Shown here in pieces: positions 16,095 to 22,757 of a DNA stretch of 64,000 nucleotides. The stretch is from Haloferax massiliensis (GTDB taxonomy: Archaea > Halobacteriota > Halobacteria > Halobacteriales > Haloferacaceae): NCBI RefSeq assembly GCF_001368915.1, contig NZ_CSTE01000002.1:825349-889348 (forward strand), in the 5' to 3' direction. Made by a program: the position numbers and the translations under genes. Below the pieces are notes generated by a model. That model was given only the letters and a program-made list of their open reading frames with translations. It was not told the DNA's origin and did no database searches. Numbering within the stretch: position 1 is the stretch's first letter; each line of letters starts with the position of its first letter.

Positions 16095-16198
16095 ACACTC
16101 ACGTACCCGCCCGCCGCGTATAAAAGGCACGCCACCGGCCACCGAATCGGCGCGGTCGGGTTGTGACGGAACCGTCCCCGGAACGCGACCCCTCCGTC

Positions 16199-16633
16199 TT
16201 ACTGGCGTCCGAGACGCTGCCGAACCTGCCGTCGGAGCGGTTCCGTGACGACCCGGTGGCCTCGCCGGTAGACGACGACGTACGCAACCGGCAGGAGTGC
16301 GACGAACGCGACGATGAGCCAGCGCCCCTGCGTGAACGGGTCGGGCGGGAGCGTGAACGCGCCGGCGTACGAAGCGACACCGGCGAGCATCACGGCGAGC
16401 GCGGCGCGCTCGGTCCTCGACGGCGGTCGCCGCCTCGACGACCCGCTGACGAAAAACAGCAGGTAGGCGACCAGTCCGACCGGAACGAAGGCGACGAGCG
16501 CCCCGAGGAGGTTCGGGAACCCGTGGCCGCGGGCGGCGGCGTTCTGCGAGACCCAAAGCGACGTGGCGACGAGGACGACGACCGGAACGAAAAACAGCGT
16601 CGCCTCCGCGGGCGACGGAACGATGGAGGGCAC
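16199..16633 (-). CDS. Small multi-pass membrane protein
   Basis: The 144-residue protein has four hydrophobic segments, at about residues 11-28 (LFFVPVVVLVATSLWVS), 42-62, 78-95 and 107-124. They are separated by short Arg-rich loops, so it is an integral membrane protein with a positively charged C-terminal tail (RRQVRQRLGRQ). No catalytic or transporter motif is recognised and no family name can be given. It lies between aMBF1 and a histidine kinase gene on the same strand with gaps too large to prove an operon. Confidence 0.6.
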   Translation of the reverse strand: MPSIVPSPAEATLFFVPVVVLVATSLWVSQNAAARGHGFPNLLGALVAFVPVGLVAYLLFFVSGSSRRRPPSRTERAALAVMLAGVASYAGAFTLPPDPFTQGRWLIVAFVALLPVAYVVVYRRGHRVVTEPLRRQVRQRLGRQ

Positions 16634-16687
16634 GAATCCTCGTCGTTCGTGTCATCTAATAATCGTTTTGGCGGGGGGTCGGAACAG

Positions 16688-18104
16688 TCAGTTCCGGCTC
16701 ACGTCCGCCAGCGGGAGCGTCAGTCGGACGGTGCTCCACCCGTCGCGCCGGTCGTAGTCGACTCGCCCGCCCGCGGACTCGACGACCCATTTGACGACCC
16801 ACAGCCCCAGTCCGGAGCCGTGGCTGAGTTGCGTGATGTCCTCGTCGCCGAAGACGGCGGCCCACTCGATTTCGGGGATGCCGTCGCCGTCGTCGCTGAC
16901 GCGGACCGTGGCGTCGTTCTCGCGCCGCTCCGCGTCGATGCGGACCGTCACGTCCTCGGAGGTGTGTTCGAGCGCGTTCTCCACGACGTTGGCGAGCGCC
17001 TGCGCGAGTTTCGGCCCGACCGAGACTGGCAGCGACGGCGGGAGGTCGAGGTCGAACATCGCCGCGGGGTATCGGTTCCGCCGCGACTCGACGACGGCGC
17101 GGACCGTCGCGGTCGCGTCGACCACCTCGTCGGGTCGTCGGTCGTCGAGGACGGCGGCGGCGGTTCGGGCCTTCTCGCTGACCCGCAAGAGCGTCTCCGT
17201 GTGGTCGGCGATGCGCCCGGCGGCGTGGTCGACGCGCGGGTCGCCCGTCGCCTCGCGTATCTCCTCGGCCATGCCGAGAACCACGTTCATCTCGTTTCTG
17301 AGGTTGTGTCTGAGGACGCGCTGGAGCACCTGCAGGTGCTCTCTGGCCCGGCGCTGACCGGTGATGTCCGAATAGATGGAAAAACCGTACCGCCTCCCGT
17401 CGCCGCGGCTGTAGGGGATGCCGCGGTAGAGGAACTCCCGTCTGCCCCACGCGGTCTGCCGGGTGACGATGGCGTGGTTGGCCTTCCCGTCGGCCGTCCG
17501 CTGGTCGAAGTCGACCGCCTCGCCGTCGGCGTCCGGCGGGACGATGAAGTCGTTGAGCGACTCGCCGCGCACCTCGTTGGCGTCGTAGCCGAAGACGGTC
17601 TCGAACCCCGGATTGACCGCCCGCACGACCGGCTCGATGCCGACGATTTCGAACTCGATGACGGCGTCGTCGATGAGGTCGAACAGGTGGTCGAAGCGGT
17701 CGCGCTCGGTGTGCAGTCGCGCGGTCGTCGGTTCCGCGGTCTCGCGGCGCACCGCGCCGACCACCCGGTCTGCGTCGGGGTCAGGGGCGTGACATCCGTC
17801 GCCCCCACTGCCGTCGTCCCCACCACCGCTGTCGCCCCCGCGGTACGGGGCGAACTCGATTTCGACTTCGGCTTCGGTGGCCGGAGCCGCCGCCCCCCGA
17901 GAGCCGACAGCGACACCGCCGGCTCTCCCACCCGCTCGCCGCTCGCACGGCGGCCGCGGCCTCGCGAACCTCCGGCCAGTCTCCGTCGGCGACGAACTCG
18001 GAGAACGGCCGTCCGCGGAGCGCCGCGGCGTCCGCGCCGAGATGCGCCGCGAACTCGTCGCTCGCGTGGACCACGGTTCCCGCCGCGTCGAGGACGAACA
18101 TCAC
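16688..18104 (-). pseudogene. PAS-PAS histidine kinase split by a frameshift
   Basis: The C-terminal frame (16688 up to about 17930) encodes a PAS domain (FDLIDDAVIEFEIVG...NPGFETVFGYDANEVRGESL), an H-box region (VLQRVLRHNLRNEMNVV), an N-box (NVVENALEH) and a GLGLWVVKW G-box. The N-terminal PAS domain (MMFVLDAAGTVVHASDEFA onward, start GTG/ATG at 18104/18101) lies in a different minus-strand frame. Both frames stay protein-like up to about 17930: one ends after REAAAAVRAASG, the other resumes ahead of EAEVEIEFAPYR. A single indel at about 17900-17940 would restore one kinase of roughly 470 residues. The sensed signal is unknown and no receiver partner is adjacent. Either the kinase is broken or there is a sequencing indel in this G-run-rich stretch. 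Confidence 0.8.
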
Positions 18105-18297
18105 CTGAGGAGAGCCGAGCGCCGCGGGCGCTCACCGTCGGTTAGAGAAAACGGGCATCGTGGGGACGCGCGGTGAGATTGCGCGAGTATATGAGAGTAT
18201 ACTGCGCAGTTGTGCATCATTCAATTCGTTCTCAGATGGTGATCTGAAATACATAAATCCGCGTTCCCGGGCAACATCCTCGGGCAGTCGAACGGGG
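18105..18297. other. Intergenic region with palindromic AT-rich core
   Basis: No gene is seen. Around 18179-18212 the sequence reads GCGCGAGTATATGAGAGTATACTGCGC, an imperfect dyad (GCGC...GCGC outside, AGTATA/TATACT inside) with TATA-like steps. It probably holds the promoter of the kinase gene reading leftward, and possibly an operator. The 18220-18297 stretch is AT-richer and unassigned. Confidence 0.4.
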
Positions 18298-18900
18298 TTA
18301 CGTCAAGTCGCCCCACGCGCCCCAGAAGCGCTGGACTGCGGTGAGGTGACCGACGACGGCGAAGAACACGAGGAGCCAGCCGACGAGCGTCAGCCCGCCG
18401 ACGGCGTCGGGGTAGACGGCGGCCGCGAGGCCGACGAGACCCATCAGCGCCAGTCGGTCGGCGCGGCCGACGAGGCCGCCGTAGGCGCGCCCGAGGCCGA
18501 CCGCCTGAATCTGCGTGCCGAGGTAGGAGGTCATGAGGACGCCCGTGACGGCGGCGAGGCCCAGCGCGAACGAGTCGATACCGGCGGCGAGACCGACGAG
18601 GACGACGATGTCGGCGTAGCGGTCGAGCACGTGGTCGAGCAGGTCGCCGGCCTTCGAGGAGACGCCCTGTTCGCGGGCGAGCGCGCCGTCGACGAGGTCG
18701 AGCCAGCCGTTGCAGAAGACGAACACCGCGCCGAGGCCGTACCAAAGCGGGTCGGCGAGGCCGAAGGCGACGCCGGCGGCGACGGCGAACCCGAAGGCGA
18801 CGACGCTCACGCCGTTCGGCGAGAGGCCGACGGCGTCGGCGACGGAGACGAACGGGGCGAGCAGTTTGTCGGCGGTGTCGCGGTACTGGTCGAGCGTCAT
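18298..18900 (-). CDS. CDP-alcohol phosphatidyltransferase family protein
   Basis: The 200-residue membrane protein carries the family signature in the segment FCNGWLDLVDGALAREQGVSSKAGDLLDHVLDR, a good D-x2-D-G-x2-A-R-x8-G-x3-D-x3-D match. About five or six hydrophobic helices follow. It should transfer a phosphoalcohol (such as inositol-phosphate, glycerol-phosphate or serine) onto a CDP-activated archaeal lipid at the cytoplasmic membrane face. Start ATG is at 18900; its first 4 nt overlap the end of the upstream kinase gene, so the three genes hisC, kinase and transferase form one operon. Which headgroup is used cannot be told. Confidence 0.9.
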   Translation of the reverse strand: MTLDQYRDTADKLLAPFVSVADAVGLSPNGVSVVAFGFAVAAGVAFGLADPLWYGLGAVFVFCNGWLDLVDGALAREQGVSSKAGDLLDHVLDRYADIVVLVGLAAGIDSFALGLAAVTGVLMTSYLGTQIQAVGLGRAYGGLVGRADRLALMGLVGLAAAVYPDAVGGLTLVGWLLVFFAVVGHLTAVQRFWGAWGDLT

Positions 18901-19406
18901 AGATATTCGATGAAGTCGACGGTCCCCGCCGAGGGGTTGCGCTCGCCCGCGACGACCGCCGCGATGTCGTCGGCGACGGCGTCGGGGTCGCGGTCGGTCG
19001 TGTCGATTTCGTACACCGCGTCCTCGCCGTGGAACTCGACGGCCTCGCCGAGAATCACGTCCAGCGCCTCGGACTCGCGGTTCTCGCGCGCCTTGGCCTC
19101 CGACTCGCCGCGGTCGAGGAGTCGCTGTTCGAGGATATCGGGGCGACACCGAAGCACGACCACGCGGTCGGCCTCGAAGTGGTGTGCGAGGTGGCTCTCG
19201 ACGACGCCGTCCCAGTCGCCGAGGTGGTCGCGGGCGGCGTCGAGGTCGACGACGAGCGTGTCGCGGTCCTCGTCGCGCTCGGTCCACAGCCCCTCGTCCT
19301 TGACGAGTCGGTTGAGGTGGACCACGTCGAGGTCGAGGTCATCGGCGACGCGCTCTGTCGCCGTGGTCTTGCCGGTGCCGGGCGTGCCGGTGACGACGAC
19401 TCTCAC
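18897..19406 (-). CDS. Adenylate-kinase-like nucleotide kinase (AK6/Fap7 type)
   Basis: The 169-residue protein begins VVVTGTPGTGKTT, a P-loop (GTPGTGKT) of the adenylate kinase AK6/Fap7 family, and has the short lid and Arg-rich CRPDILEQRL segment of that group. It probably has adenylate kinase activity and may, like Fap7, act in small ribosomal subunit maturation. The GTG at 19406 overlaps the hisC stop codon (GTGA), and its own stop overlaps the next gene by 4 nt, so translation is coupled. No extra domain is present. Assignment is to family; the cellular role is inference. Confidence 0.87.
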   Translation of the reverse strand: MRVVVTGTPGTGKTTATERVADDLDLDVVHLNRLVKDEGLWTERDEDRDTLVVDLDAARDHLGDWDGVVESHLAHHFEADRVVVLRCRPDILEQRLLDRGESEAKARENRESEALDVILGEAVEFHGEDAVYEIDTTDRDPDAVADDIAAVVAGERNPSAGTVDFIEYL

Positions 19407-20488
19407 GCCGGCGGCACCTCCGAGACGATGCGGTTGAGCACGTCCACGGCGCGCTTGGTTTGGGCTTCGGTGCCGCAGGAGACGCGGATGCACTCCGGCA
19501 GGCCGAAGCTCCCGCAGTCGCGGACGATGACGCCCTCGCGCTGGGCGGCCTCGGTGACGGCGGTGGCGTCGCCGACCTCGACGAGGACGAAGTTGCCCTC
19601 GCTTTCCCACGTCGGCGCGTCGAGCCGTTCGCGGAGGTACCCGCGGGACCACCGGGCCGACTCGACGGATTTCTCGACGTGTTCCTCGTCGTCGAGCGCG
19701 GCGAGCGCGGCGCGGCAGGCGAGCTCGCTGGCGGCGAACGGCGTGTTCACGCGGGCGTAGGCGTCGGCCCACGCCTCGGGCACGCAGGCGTAGCCGATGC
19801 GGAGCCCGGCCAGCCCGTACGCCTTCGAGAACGTCCGCAGGACCGCGATGTTGTCGTACTCCGAGAGGAGGTCGATGGCCGACGGCTCCTCGGCGAACTC
19901 GCCGTAGGCCTCGTCGACGACGAGGAGCGTGTTGTCCTCGACGGACTCGGCGAGTTCGCCGAGTTCGTCGCGGGGGAACACGGACCCCGTCGGGTTGTGC
20001 GGCGTCGTGAGGTAGACCATGCGCTCGCCGTCGTAGGCGTCGAGGACGAGGTCGGAGGTCTGTTCGAAGTCGTCGCCCTTCGACACCTCGTACTGGACGG
20101 CGTCGCCGTGGTGGTAGCGGGCGCTCATCGAGTAGTACGAAAAGCCGGGCGACGGTTCGAGAATCCGGTCGTCGGGTTCGAGCATCGCGCGGGTCAGGTA
20201 GTCGATGGAGCCGTCGGCCCCGGGCGACACCCACACCTGTTCGGATTCGAGGCCCCACTTGTCGGCGAGACGTTCGGTCAGGTCCGTGTGGGCGGTCTTC
20301 GGGTAGACGCTCACGGTCGGCGCGGCGTCCTCGATGGCGGCGACCGCCTTCGGGCTCGGGCCGTGGGGGTTCTCGTTCGAGGAGAGTTTCGTCAGGTCCT
20401 CGGGGTCCATCCCGAGTTCGCGGGCGACCTCCTCTGTCCCGCGGCCGGGTACGTAGGGAGCGTGCGCGGAGAGGTCCCGTGGTTGCAT
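19403..20488 (-). CDS. hisC: Histidinol-phosphate aminotransferase
   Basis: The 361-residue fold-type I aminotransferase matches HisC in length. It starts MQPRDLSAHAPYVPGRGTEE and has the SSNENPHGPSPKAV motif (LSxNENPxGP), typical of HisC. The PLP-binding Lys lies in RTFSKAYGLAGLRIGY (about residue 220). It transaminates imidazole-acetol phosphate with glutamate for histidine synthesis and may also serve aromatic amino acids. It is the first gene of an overlapping operon with the kinase and CDP-alcohol transferase. ATG at 20488 is the only start that keeps the full N-terminal arm. Confidence 0.94.
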   Translation of the reverse strand: MQPRDLSAHAPYVPGRGTEEVARELGMDPEDLTKLSSNENPHGPSPKAVAAIEDAAPTVSVYPKTAHTDLTERLADKWGLESEQVWVSPGADGSIDYLTRAMLEPDDRILEPSPGFSYYSMSARYHHGDAVQYEVSKGDDFEQTSDLVLDAYDGERMVYLTTPHNPTGSVFPRDELGELAESVEDNTLLVVDEAYGEFAEEPSAIDLLSEYDNIAVLRTFSKAYGLAGLRIGYACVPEAWADAYARVNTPFAASELACRAALAALDDEEHVEKSVESARWSRGYLRERLDAPTWESEGNFVLVEVGDATAVTEAAQREGVIVRDCGSFGLPECIRVSCGTEAQTKRAVDVLNRIVSEVPPA

Positions 20489-20566: not shown

Positions 20567-22147
20567 TCACCCGAGTTCGGCCCGGAGCGACTCGGCGAGC
20601 CGGAGGGAGAGCGCCGCGATGGTGAGCGTCGGGTTCATCGCGCCGCCGGTCGGGAAGACGCTCGACCCCGAAATCCAGAGGTTGTCGAGGTCGTGGGCGC
20701 GGCAGTCGGCGTCCACGACGCTCGATGCGGGGTCGTCGCCCATCCGCGTCGTCCCCATGTGGTGGTACGCGGGGCCGGTCTCGTCGGGGCCGACGGTCCA
20801 GCGGTCCTCGACGCCGAGTTCGTCCAGCACCCGCGTCTGAATCTCGTTGGCCCGCGAGAGTGCGGCCCTCGTCCGCTCGTCGACCGACCAGTGTATCTCG
20901 GGGACGGGGTCGCCGAGGTCGTCGGTCGTCTCCCGGTCGAGGCCGACGTAGTTGTCCTCGCGGGGAAGCTGTTCGACCAGCGCGCCCATCGAGACGTGCG
21001 TGCCGTAGCGCTCGTCCAGTTGGTCGAGCAGGTCGTCGCCCCACGTGTCGGCGGCGAGGGCGTCGATGACCGGCGACGGGCCGGCGTAGTTGAGAAACTC
21101 CAGTTTGAGGCCGTTGACCGGCTCGGCGTCGTCGTAGAACTGGTGGCACTCGCTGGTGTTGAAGCCGACGTGGTTCTGCCGCGTGGGCCGGTCGAGGCGG
21201 CCGCCCATCCCGGCGAACAGGTGGTCCATGAAGTACCGGCCGACCGCCCCCGAGGAGTTGGCGAGGCCGTCGGGGTGGCGGTCGGACGCCGAAAGCAGGA
21301 GCAGTCTGATGTTCTCGACGCCGCCGCAGGCGAGGACGAACCGGGTCGCCGCCTGCCTGTGGGTCTCGCCGTCGGGCGTCGTGTAGGCCGCGGCGACGAC
21401 GCGCTCGCCGGCCGCGTCGTGTTCGAGTCGCCGGACCCGCGCCCGGTCGATGACCCGCGCGCCGGCGGCTTCGGCCTTCTCGACGTGGGATTCGGCGGTG
21501 TACTTCGCACCCGAGGGACACACCGGCTTGCACGTCCCGTAGCCGACGCAGGGCGACCGGTCGTCGTAGGGCTCGGAGTTGCGGGCGTTGCCGACCGAGT
21601 GCATGTCGATGCCGAGGCGTTCGCAGGCCTCGGCGAAGATGGAGTCCGAGTGCGACGGCCGGAAGGCGGGAAGCGGATAGGGCTCGTCCCGCGGCGGCGC
21701 GTAGGGGTTGTCGGCCGCGCCGGCGACGCCCAACTCGCGCTCCGCGGCGGCGTAGTGCGGCCGGAGGTCGTCGTAGCCGATTGGCCAGTCGACTCCGACG
21801 CCGTGTCTGGAGTCGAGTTCGAAGTCGCGCTCGTGGAGGCGCATCACCATCCCCTGCCAGTGGAGCGTCGACCCGCCGACGCCCTTCACCCGGGCGGCGT
21901 TCAGCGGGTAAAACGAGTCGCCGGAGGAGGAAAACGCGTCCCGCGGGCCGCCCATCTCCCACGGGCCGCCGAGGCCGGGGCGGATGTGCTGTTCCAACTG
22001 CTCCCGCCTGTCGCCGTCGAACCGCGGTCCGGCTTCGAGGACGACGACCGACGCCCCCGACTCTGCGAGGCGGTGGGCCACGATACCGCCGGCGGGTCCC
22101 GCACCGACGATGCACACGTCGGCGTCGGCGACGGGCGTTCTATCCAT
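20567..22147 (-). CDS. GMC-family dehydrogenase with Fe-S-type cysteine motif
   Basis: The 526-residue flavoprotein has an N-terminal FAD-binding GxGxxG (CIVGAGPAGGIVAHRLAE), the GMC signature-like GGSTLHWQGM stretch and a late second signature (HHMGTTRMGDDPASSV, WISGSSVFPTGGAMNPT). The catalytic His is expected in this C-terminal part. Around residue 188 the sequence CVGYGTCKPVC has spacing C-x5-C-x3-C, as I recall for the 3Fe-4S cluster of bacterial FAD-dependent glucose dehydrogenase. With its Tat-type small subunit upstream it should oxidise a sugar or alcohol outside the cell membrane. No cytochrome subunit is next to it. The start at 22147 overlaps the preceding stop by 8 nt. Confidence 0.87.
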   Translation of the reverse strand: MDRTPVADADVCIVGAGPAGGIVAHRLAESGASVVVLEAGPRFDGDRREQLEQHIRPGLGGPWEMGGPRDAFSSSGDSFYPLNAARVKGVGGSTLHWQGMVMRLHERDFELDSRHGVGVDWPIGYDDLRPHYAAAERELGVAGAADNPYAPPRDEPYPLPAFRPSHSDSIFAEACERLGIDMHSVGNARNSEPYDDRSPCVGYGTCKPVCPSGAKYTAESHVEKAEAAGARVIDRARVRRLEHDAAGERVVAAAYTTPDGETHRQAATRFVLACGGVENIRLLLLSASDRHPDGLANSSGAVGRYFMDHLFAGMGGRLDRPTRQNHVGFNTSECHQFYDDAEPVNGLKLEFLNYAGPSPVIDALAADTWGDDLLDQLDERYGTHVSMGALVEQLPREDNYVGLDRETTDDLGDPVPEIHWSVDERTRAALSRANEIQTRVLDELGVEDRWTVGPDETGPAYHHMGTTRMGDDPASSVVDADCRAHDLDNLWISGSSVFPTGGAMNPTLTIAALSLRLAESLRAELG

Positions 22148-22757
22148 CGCTCTCACCGCCGGAGTCGGTTGCCTCGCCCCCGTCCATCGTCGCCCGCCGG
22201 TAGCTCTCGGTTCCGCCGGGGTGGCCGATGGGGTTCTCGATGCCGACGAGGCGGCCGCCGGTCGGCGAGGCGTAGAAGGCGTACAGCAGTTCGTTCACGA
22301 CGTGAAACCGGAGGCGCTCCGAGAGCGTCCCGTCCGGAACCGGGTCGGCGGTGTTGACGCCGAGTTCGCGCAGGAGGCGGTCGCGGTCGCCCGCCGGCAG
22401 GTCGGCGAAGGCCGCGTTCTCCCAGTCGCGGGCCACGCCGTCTAACTCGGCCACGGCGTCGACCATCGCATCCCGGCGCGCGTCGTCGCGGGCGCGGCCG
22501 ACGACGTAGGTCTCGACGAACTCGGGTATTCCTTCGACGGCGCTCGGGTAGACCACCTCGCCGGCGGCGACCATCGTCTCGCGCACCGCGGTCGGTGGGG
22601 TGTCACCGTCGCCGTCACCACCGCGCTCGCCGCCCGAACCGCGCCCCTCACCGGTCGAATCGGCGGTCGACGGGTCGAACTGCGTCAGCGAGACGGCCCC
22701 GGCGGTGACGCCGAGACCGGCGAGCACGGCCAGCGCGTCCCGTCGGGTCAGTCGCAT
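22140..22757 (-). CDS. Gluconate-2-dehydrogenase subunit-3-like protein with Tat signal
   Basis: The 205-residue protein starts MRLTRRDALAVLAGLGVTAG, a twin-arginine signal (TRRD plus a hydrophobic core), followed by an Asp/Gly/Ser-rich spacer and a globular domain of about 130 residues (VVYPSAVEGIPEFVETYVVG onward) of the gluconate 2-dehydrogenase subunit 3 / FAD-GDH gamma type. In known systems this subunit carries the flavoprotein through the Tat pathway and stabilises it. It overlaps the GMC gene by 8 nt, so the two must be co-translated. The GMC protein itself has no signal and should be exported as a hitch-hiker. Confidence 0.86.
   Translation of the reverse strand: MRLTRRDALAVLAGLGVTAGAVSLTQFDPSTADSTGEGRGSGGERGGDGDGDTPPTAVRETMVAAGEVVYPSAVEGIPEFVETYVVGRARDDARRDAMVDAVAELDGVARDWENAAFADLPAGDRDRLLRELGVNTADPVPDGTLSERLRFHVVNELLYAFYASPTGGRLVGIENPIGHPGGTESYRRATMDGGEATDSGGESDG

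Follow-up and report, generated by a model that had tools for sequence, protein, structure and literature searches.

FAD-dependent glucose dehydrogenase of Burkholderia cepacia (BcGDH; PDB entries 6a2u and 8grj) and Gluconobacter japonicus fructose dehydrogenase (FDH; 7w2j, 8jej) are the best structurally solved relatives of the flavoprotein described here. According to the available part of PMC6719666, the BcGDH alpha subunit carries FAD covalently attached to His105 and a 3Fe-4S cluster, which is ligated by C212, C218 and C222 and lies 12-13 Å from the flavin. The gamma subunit bears the export signal, and its C-terminal loop (C152-P153...P156-G157) packs on the cluster; the disulfide between Cys213(alpha) and Cys152(gamma) is described in the same part as not conserved in the family. 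BcGDH also has a triheme cytochrome beta subunit, and a multi-heme cytochrome c subunit is likewise borne by FDH and its relatives, the sorbitol, 2-ketogluconate and gluconate dehydrogenases, as stated in the available part of PMC9727119.

We analysed a 64,000-nucleotide stretch of Haloferax massiliensis DNA (the window), in which a GMC flavoprotein is encoded together with a small protein of the Gluconate_2-dh3 family, the same Pfam family as the BcGDH hitchhiker subunit. As listed in Table 1, both genes lie on the minus strand, with the small-subunit gene upstream and the two overlapping by 17 nt as called. The translation of the small subunit begins MRLTRRDALAVLAGLGV, and its Gluconate_2-dh3 domain exceeds the Pfam cut-off (E 4.7e-6). 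An earlier note on this DNA, made from the letters alone, had described a GMC protein encoded with a Tat-signal small subunit, and both reading frames were found where it had placed them.

Table 1. Coordinates of the gene pair and of its predicted functional residues in the window
Feature	Position	Strand	Remarks
Small subunit, Gluconate_2-dh3 'hitchhiker' (PF13618), 205 aa, no Cys	22140..22757	-	Tat signal, RR at residues 5-6
Small-subunit C-terminal motif NPxGHPGG (residues 175-182)	22212..22235	-	N175 and P176 invariant in 40 sequences
GMC flavoprotein, alpha (catalytic) subunit, 529 aa as called	20567..22156	-	GTG start; alternative start M4
H99, aligned with His105 of BcGDH (covalent FAD)	21860..21862	-	Sequence alignment
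C178, invariant fourth Cys, candidate fourth cluster ligand	21623..21625	-	Aligned with BcGDH Leu185
C203-x5-C209-x3-C213 (CVGYGTCKPVC, residues 203-213), predicted iron-sulfur ligands	21518..21550	-	In register with 6a2u
H465, catalytic His of the GMC His/Asn pair	20762..20764	-	Invariant column and alignment
N508, catalytic Asn of the GMC His/Asn pair	20633..20635	-	Invariant column and alignment

The GMC protein contains the N- and C-terminal domains of its superfamily (PF00732, GMC_oxred_N, and PF05199, GMC_oxred_C, both above the Pfam cut-offs) as well as the FAD dinucleotide motif. In phmmer searches, it matched the BcGDH alpha subunit over its full length with an E value of 4e-94 and FDH with an E value of about 1e-83. 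Pyranose and choline oxidases, which lack the Fe-S cysteines, ranked far below these Fe-S dehydrogenases, and thus a clear flavin oxidase signature, named beforehand as a finding that would refute the idea, did not emerge. An identity as an O2-using oxidase was rejected on this ranking together with the invariant cysteines described below. The AlphaFold model of the protein (mean pLDDT 78) gave the same picture, since the top nine matches in a PDB fold search were all FDH or FAD-GDH (E down to 1.8e-48, TM 0.83-0.89), with FDH as the top structural match. A small Tat subunit is common to FDH and the haloarchaeal pair; the substrate site of FDH and its relatives is unlike that of the haloarchaeal GMC protein. 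H465 and N508, which align with the His/Asn pair of the solved relatives, are unchanged across 41 haloarchaeal rows, and H99 is conserved in the haloarchaeal alignment, so that a covalent FAD bond may be present here.

The earlier note had recognized in CVGYGTCKPVC the 3Fe-4S spacing of FAD-GDH, and the alignment with 6a2u bore this out, as C203, C209 and C213 fall exactly on the GDH ligands C212, C218 and C222. A lack of conservation of these cysteines in close homologues had been named in advance as another finding that would refute the idea. We found C178, C203, C209 and C213 to be Cys in all of 111 haloarchaeal loci (80 + 31, some of which come from the same genomes and two of which are the window's own), while C277, C337 and C485 of the same protein are variable. 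A chance occurrence of the motif was excluded by the full-length match to FAD-GDH, the register with the ligands and this conservation. A plasmid copy in DL31 reads C-x5-C-x2-C and is shorter by one residue. Outside the haloarchaea, 18 of the 21 sequences sampled (19 bacterial loci and two PDB stretches) contain the three-Cys motif, and only three of these 18, two from Deinococcus and one from Sphingomonas, have a Cys at position 178; none of the FAD-GDH and FDH types compared among them does. Since C178 is invariant in haloarchaea and missing from FAD-GDH, where Leu185 takes its place in BcGDH, it may serve as a fourth ligand, and the predicted Fe-S cluster of the haloarchaeal GMC protein may then be of the 4Fe-4S rather than the 3Fe-4S type. 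The AlphaFold model is uninformative on cluster geometry, because the cluster loop (residues 201-218) has a pLDDT below 50.

Nearly all small-subunit rows carry a Tat-type RR signal, with R5 and R6 invariant in 40 sequences, and a regular expression for the lipobox matched 11 of 71 small subunits, the window's copy not being among them. By our reading of the residue list in the available part of PMC6719666, the NPxGHPGG motif probably sits at the place of the BcGDH gamma C-terminal loop. The intersubunit disulfide of BcGDH is absent here, because V204 replaces the alpha-subunit Cys and the window's small subunit is free of Cys. With the AlphaFold model of the small subunit, no PDB match was obtained at E<=0.001 and the BcGDH gamma chain was not retrieved; a PDB sequence search with the small subunit likewise gave no useful match.

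Gene order and occurrence were then compared among relatives. The locus sample consisted of the window and the best 80 of at least 590 relatives and is therefore biased toward close ones. In this sample, a profile search placed a small-subunit gene directly upstream of the GMC gene in 72 of 81 loci. For each of the other nine, the small-subunit gene was found elsewhere in the same genome (9/9), and the translated stretch upstream of the GMC gene contained no Tat signal of its own, so that export in these cases, if any, must rely on the distant small subunit. At the genome level, the GMC protein was assigned to 298 of 391 Halobacteria genomes (E<=1e-100; 11 weaker matches, with E values from 7.8e-31 to 9.8e-39, were excluded from the initial 309 as other GMC proteins). 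The small subunit, counted separately, occurs in an identical set of 298 genomes, even where the two genes are apart. Roughly three in four Halobacteria genomes thus carry the pair, which is far from rare.

The haloarchaeal pair lacks the multi-heme cytochrome c subunit of the FAD-GDH/FDH complexes, as had been noticed from the sequence at first sight. Cytochrom_C (PF00034) and Cytochrome_CBB3 (PF13442) had no match in the window's own genome, and the pattern C-x2-C-H was not found in the window DNA; we therefore consider the pair to be a gamma-alpha core only, not the full three-subunit complex. The premise that the bacterial enzymes use such a cytochrome does not hold throughout. Among the 19 bacterial loci, a cytochrome c gene lies beside the pair or within about 2.5-5 kb in seven (L126, L157-L160, L164 and L165), nine are annotated and have none (L124, L125, L127, L154, L155, L161, L162, L166 and L167), and three are without annotation (L123, L156 and L163). 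In L161 and L162, both among these nine, the cysteines are missing as well. The order small subunit-GMC-multicopper oxidase was seen in Skermanella (L155), a ferritin-like protein is encoded beside the pair in Methylobacterium (L124), and Deinococcus has neither. These loci show that in bacterial relatives the cytochrome subunit can be absent or have another protein in its place. The cytochrome-less pairs of Deinococcus (L125/L166), Skermanella and Methylobacterium share the two-gene core and the three-Cys motif with the haloarchaeal pair, and that of Deinococcus also has the C178 equivalent, but they are only about 35-38% identical to it, have other neighbors, and no co-inherited dolichol-type glycan genes were seen with them. 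From these comparisons, the pair is, as far as sequence can tell, an archaeal member of the bacterial FAD-GDH/FDH enzyme type, minus the cytochrome: the GMC fold, C-x5-C-x3-C, the His that binds FAD covalently in BcGDH, the His/Asn pair and a Tat hitchhiker subunit encoded just upstream are common to it and BcGDH, the host being a halophilic archaeon in one case and a bacterium in the other.

The carrier chain of haloarchaea is not settled, and for species that have no equivalent of complex III the available part of PMC8305020 describes the route of the electrons as unresolved. A blue copper protein or a membrane quinone had been proposed as the acceptor, together with a search for halocyanin or cytochrome genes. 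The window's own genome contains 10 Copper-bind matches and no match to the two cytochrome c families. A halocyanin-like sequence was found near the GMC gene or the detached small-subunit gene in only 2 of 93 loci, a test made with 10 query fragments, of which the six from the coding strand were informative. A halocyanin as a dedicated neighbor was rejected on this count, albeit by a weaker test than ten informative queries would have given, and a general electron carrier is accordingly likelier than a dedicated one.

Two gene contexts were distinguished in the 81 loci. Context B was defined by at least two of a GT39-type transferase with DUF7846, a GT2 dolichyl-phosphate hexose transferase, an RGP-type protein and an ABC transporter, the last consisting of an SBP_bac_6-type lipoprotein, a fused permease and an ATPase; context A was defined by at least two of hisC, an adk-type kinase, a CDP-alcohol transferase-like gene, FAA hydrolase and metallo-beta-lactamase. 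In this sample of the best 80 of at least 590 relatives plus the window, context B was found in 44 loci, context A in 32, both in none and neither in five. The window itself belongs to context A, and its neighbors DUF1648 and FAA hydrolase were rejected as partners, as they follow one of the two contexts. On the GMC tree, eight changes of context label are needed against a minimum of two (a quick method, with many weak forks), which indicated that the pair has been relocated more than once. On Salarchaeum plasmid pJOR178, RGP, SBP, ABC, GT39, small subunit, GMC and dolichyl-phosphate hexose transferase genes follow each other on one strand with short gaps; the entire context B set is plasmid-borne in both Salarchaeum and Halobaculum. 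Of nine fetched genomes with a detached small subunit, eight could be examined for context (the contig of G398, a Haloarculaceae-type genome, is too short), and in all 8 regions the small-subunit gene directly adjoins the GT39 gene and is accompanied by the context B permease and binding protein. Thus, the conserved neighborhood that had been looked for exists as glycan-type genes beside GMC in 44/81 loci, and it fails in the 32/81, the window included, where the neighbors are unrelated. Membrane proteins encoded upstream of the pair in Komagataeibacter and DL31 were considered as mutual homologues and rejected (blastp E 1.8, no Pfam family).

Co-inheritance extends the association beyond gene order. 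Among 145 genomes (G000-G144), RGP (PF03214) and DUF7846 (PF25230) each occur in 115, and these are the same 115. GMC occurs in 116, namely these genomes and G104, and 29 genomes are devoid of all three, which gives a phyletic table of 115/1/0/29 for RGP, and likewise for DUF7846, against GMC (phi 0.98). A rhodopsin control in the same 145 genomes (present in 103) yielded a phi of 0.17 with GMC. The one exception, G104, has a divergent GMC (E 7e-180) and a small subunit and lacks RGP and DUF7846. A further comparison covered 59 genomes. Here, the dolichyl-phosphate hexose transferase (NF041391, over cut-off) was present in 44/44 with GMC and 0/15 without, and the ABC binding protein in 44/44 and 2/15, respectively, at E<=1e-90, a cut-off set post hoc in the gap between 1e-93 and 1e-73. 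Some genomes without GMC (e.g., G022, G097, G031 and G052) come from genera in which the remaining genomes possess the complete set, so that several separate losses or non-gains are concordant. Proximity alone does not explain the phyletic match either, because the genes lie at three places in the window genome: the RGP-SBP-permease-ATPase-GT39 cassette occupies C2:410.9-418.4 kb, the hexose transferase gene maps to 522 kb, and the pair is found at 846-848 kb.

Based on family names (Pfam, NCBIfam) and on this co-inheritance, we favor a sugar at the cell surface or attached to a lipid as the target of oxidation. The pair would be folded in the cytoplasm, exported by the Tat pathway on the signal of the small subunit and sometimes tethered as a lipoprotein; the enzyme would then oxidize a sugar hydroxyl outside the cell, passing electrons from FAD to the Fe-S cluster and on to an acceptor. 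Rather than a cytochrome c dedicated to the pair, this would most likely be a general carrier of the haloarchaeal membrane (halocyanin or menaquinone). The most likely substrate would be a sugar within a glycan, dolichyl-linked or at the surface, that is built by the co-inherited genes for the dolichyl-phosphate hexose transferase, the GT39/DUF7846 transferase and the RGP-type protein. The hexose transferase would load dolichyl phosphate in the cytoplasm, the GT39-type membrane transferase would use such donors on the outer face, and the RGP-type protein would have a nucleotide-sugar or protein-glucosylating role, so that a sugar of a surface glycan or glycolipid, oxidized after export, would be the simplest common theme. 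The Fe-S cluster itself, the export of the pair, the acceptor and the substrate are what we infer; the family, the cysteines, the Tat-type signal, the missing cytochrome c families and the co-inheritance are what the analysis shows. The co-inherited genes suggest where the substrate should be sought; by our assessment, the earlier note put it too strongly in naming a sugar on homology alone.

As a whole, the view that an exported Fe-S flavin dehydrogenase pair oxidizes a surface or dolichyl-linked glycan sugar and uses a non-dedicated acceptor stands, in our estimate, about evenly between right and wrong. Its more specific form, with a [4Fe-4S] cluster involving C178 and a blue-copper or quinone acceptor, is put forward only tentatively. 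The shared phyletic pattern could reflect transfer and loss of a multi-function cassette, and 32 of 81 loci, including the window, place the pair among unrelated genes (hisC, adk-type kinase, FAA hydrolase). A pure glycan role is also at odds with G104, whose pair is without RGP and DUF7846, and with the copy in Halarchaeum, which adjoins arabinofuranosidase, sugar ABC and xylose dehydrogenase genes and makes it clear that divergent relatives can function in ordinary sugar utilization. The low number of lipoboxes (11 of 71 small subunits) and the failure of the small-subunit model to retrieve a PDB match also count against the proposal.

The Halarchaeum copy, lying in a region of pentose/galactoside utilization, leads to the strongest of the alternatives. 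In this view, the enzyme would be an ordinary respiratory-chain aldose dehydrogenase acting outside the cell, which would convert glucose, lactose, xylose or arabinose into the sugar acid and have no functional tie to glycan genes. The closest solved enzymes use glucose and fructose, and the Deinococcus and Sphingomonas relatives adjoin glycosidases. Halobacterium saccharovorum reportedly oxidizes lactose independently of NAD and forms lactobionate, according to old reports, which would fit such an enzyme. The near-perfect co-inheritance with three glycan-type genes argues against it, as does the presence of the pair in Halobacterium salinarum (L028), which is not known to grow on sugars. We consider this explanation unlikely, if worth keeping in mind.

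A third reading, in iron uptake, was entertained because the motif N-H-Y-Y, known from ferric-binding proteins, is present in 30 of 31 context B binding proteins. Oxidation of an external saccharide would yield an Fe(III)-chelating acid or serve Fe(III) reduction, and the neighboring ABC transporter, with its SBP_bac_6-type lipoprotein, fused permease and ATPase, would import the iron. However, the occurrence of the transporter does not follow that of GMC strictly, as seen in the binding-protein matches in 2/15 genomes without GMC, and NCBIfam models for other substrates score equally on the permease and the ATPase. The main text of a Haloferax iron-starvation proteome paper, in its available part, mentions neither GMC nor glucan (PMC11349517). 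We regard a role in iron uptake as improbable. Finally, a structural role of the cysteines, or their binding of a different metal, in a protein of the O2-using pyranose/C-glycoside oxidase type is very improbable: the C-terminal half does match these oxidases as well and the putative cluster loop is poorly modelled (pLDDT <50), but the oxidase matches have E values of 2e-20 or worse against 4e-94 and partial coverage, the Cys positions coincide with the 3Fe-4S ligands without variation, and the Tat small subunit is co-inherited in 298/298 genomes.

Public records already annotate the haloarchaeal proteins as 'GMC family oxidoreductase' and 'gluconate 2-dehydrogenase subunit 3 family protein'; the genes as such were therefore on record before, and bacteria are known to have enzymes of this type. 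A search of the open-access literature found no description of the haloarchaeal pair, its cysteines or its co-inheritance. On this search, what appears to be new is an FAD-GDH-type gamma-alpha core that occurs without a cytochrome, carries a fourth invariant Cys and belongs to a haloarchaeal glycan-gene set. FAD-GDH is used as a biosensor enzyme, and a salt-stable, cytochrome-free relative may therefore be of practical use. The co-inherited gene set provides a short list of Haloferax volcanii knock-outs with which to place the enzyme. If the glycan reading is true, the pair would be a test case for cytochrome-free electron transfer by FAD-GDH-like enzymes, and an exported redox step would belong to the surface-glycan chemistry of haloarchaea.

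As shown in the table, another gene takes the place of the cytochrome c gene beside the small subunit and the GMC flavoprotein in two bacterial plasmids. The multicopper oxidase of Skermanella rosea is a hint that a copper acceptor is used instead of cytochrome c in a bacterial case. When the GMC protein of this locus was aligned, the usual catalytic His/Asn pair was absent from the expected columns, and this absence is perhaps a fault of the alignment. Membrane proteins precede the pair on two further plasmids, one archaeal and one bacterial. These proteins are about 310-325 aa in size and matched no Pfam family, and a blastp comparison showed no likeness between the two. Both might serve as electron acceptors in the membrane.

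Loci carrying the pair, parts of it, or a second RGP protein
Locus	Source	Feature
L155:1831-5708	Skermanella rosea plasmid pSR-1	consecutive genes for small subunit, GMC and multicopper oxidase
L124:6694-7929	Methylobacterium phyllosphaerae plasmid	ferritin-like-domain protein (PF12902) after small subunit and GMC
L122:3465-6668	archaeon DL31 plasmid	membrane protein, then small subunit and GMC
L167:738-3991	Komagataeibacter xylinus plasmid	membrane protein, then small subunit and GMC
L129:1-13410	Halarchaeum sp. CBA1220 plasmid	copy of the pair
G351:C1:2094760-2095269	genome G351	small-subunit match
L151 (G010:C2:1525556-1526527)	genome G010	second RGP protein

The Halarchaeum copy, 58% identical, is flanked by genes for an arabinofuranosidase, a sugar ABC transporter, a GH2-like protein, and D-xylose 1-dehydrogenase. 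The small-subunit match of genome G351 carries one TGA in frame, possibly reflecting a broken gene or a sequencing fault.

In the window, numerous long ORFs overlap on both strands at 16163-20258 and elsewhere, a pattern typical for haloarchaeal DNA of high GC, and no tRNA gene was found in the window as a whole.

The second RGP protein matched the Pfam RGP model nearly over its full length with an E value of 1.1e-135, whereas the usual haloarchaeal RGP-type protein reaches only about 1e-16. It has the appearance of a genuine plant-type RGP encoded by an archaeon.
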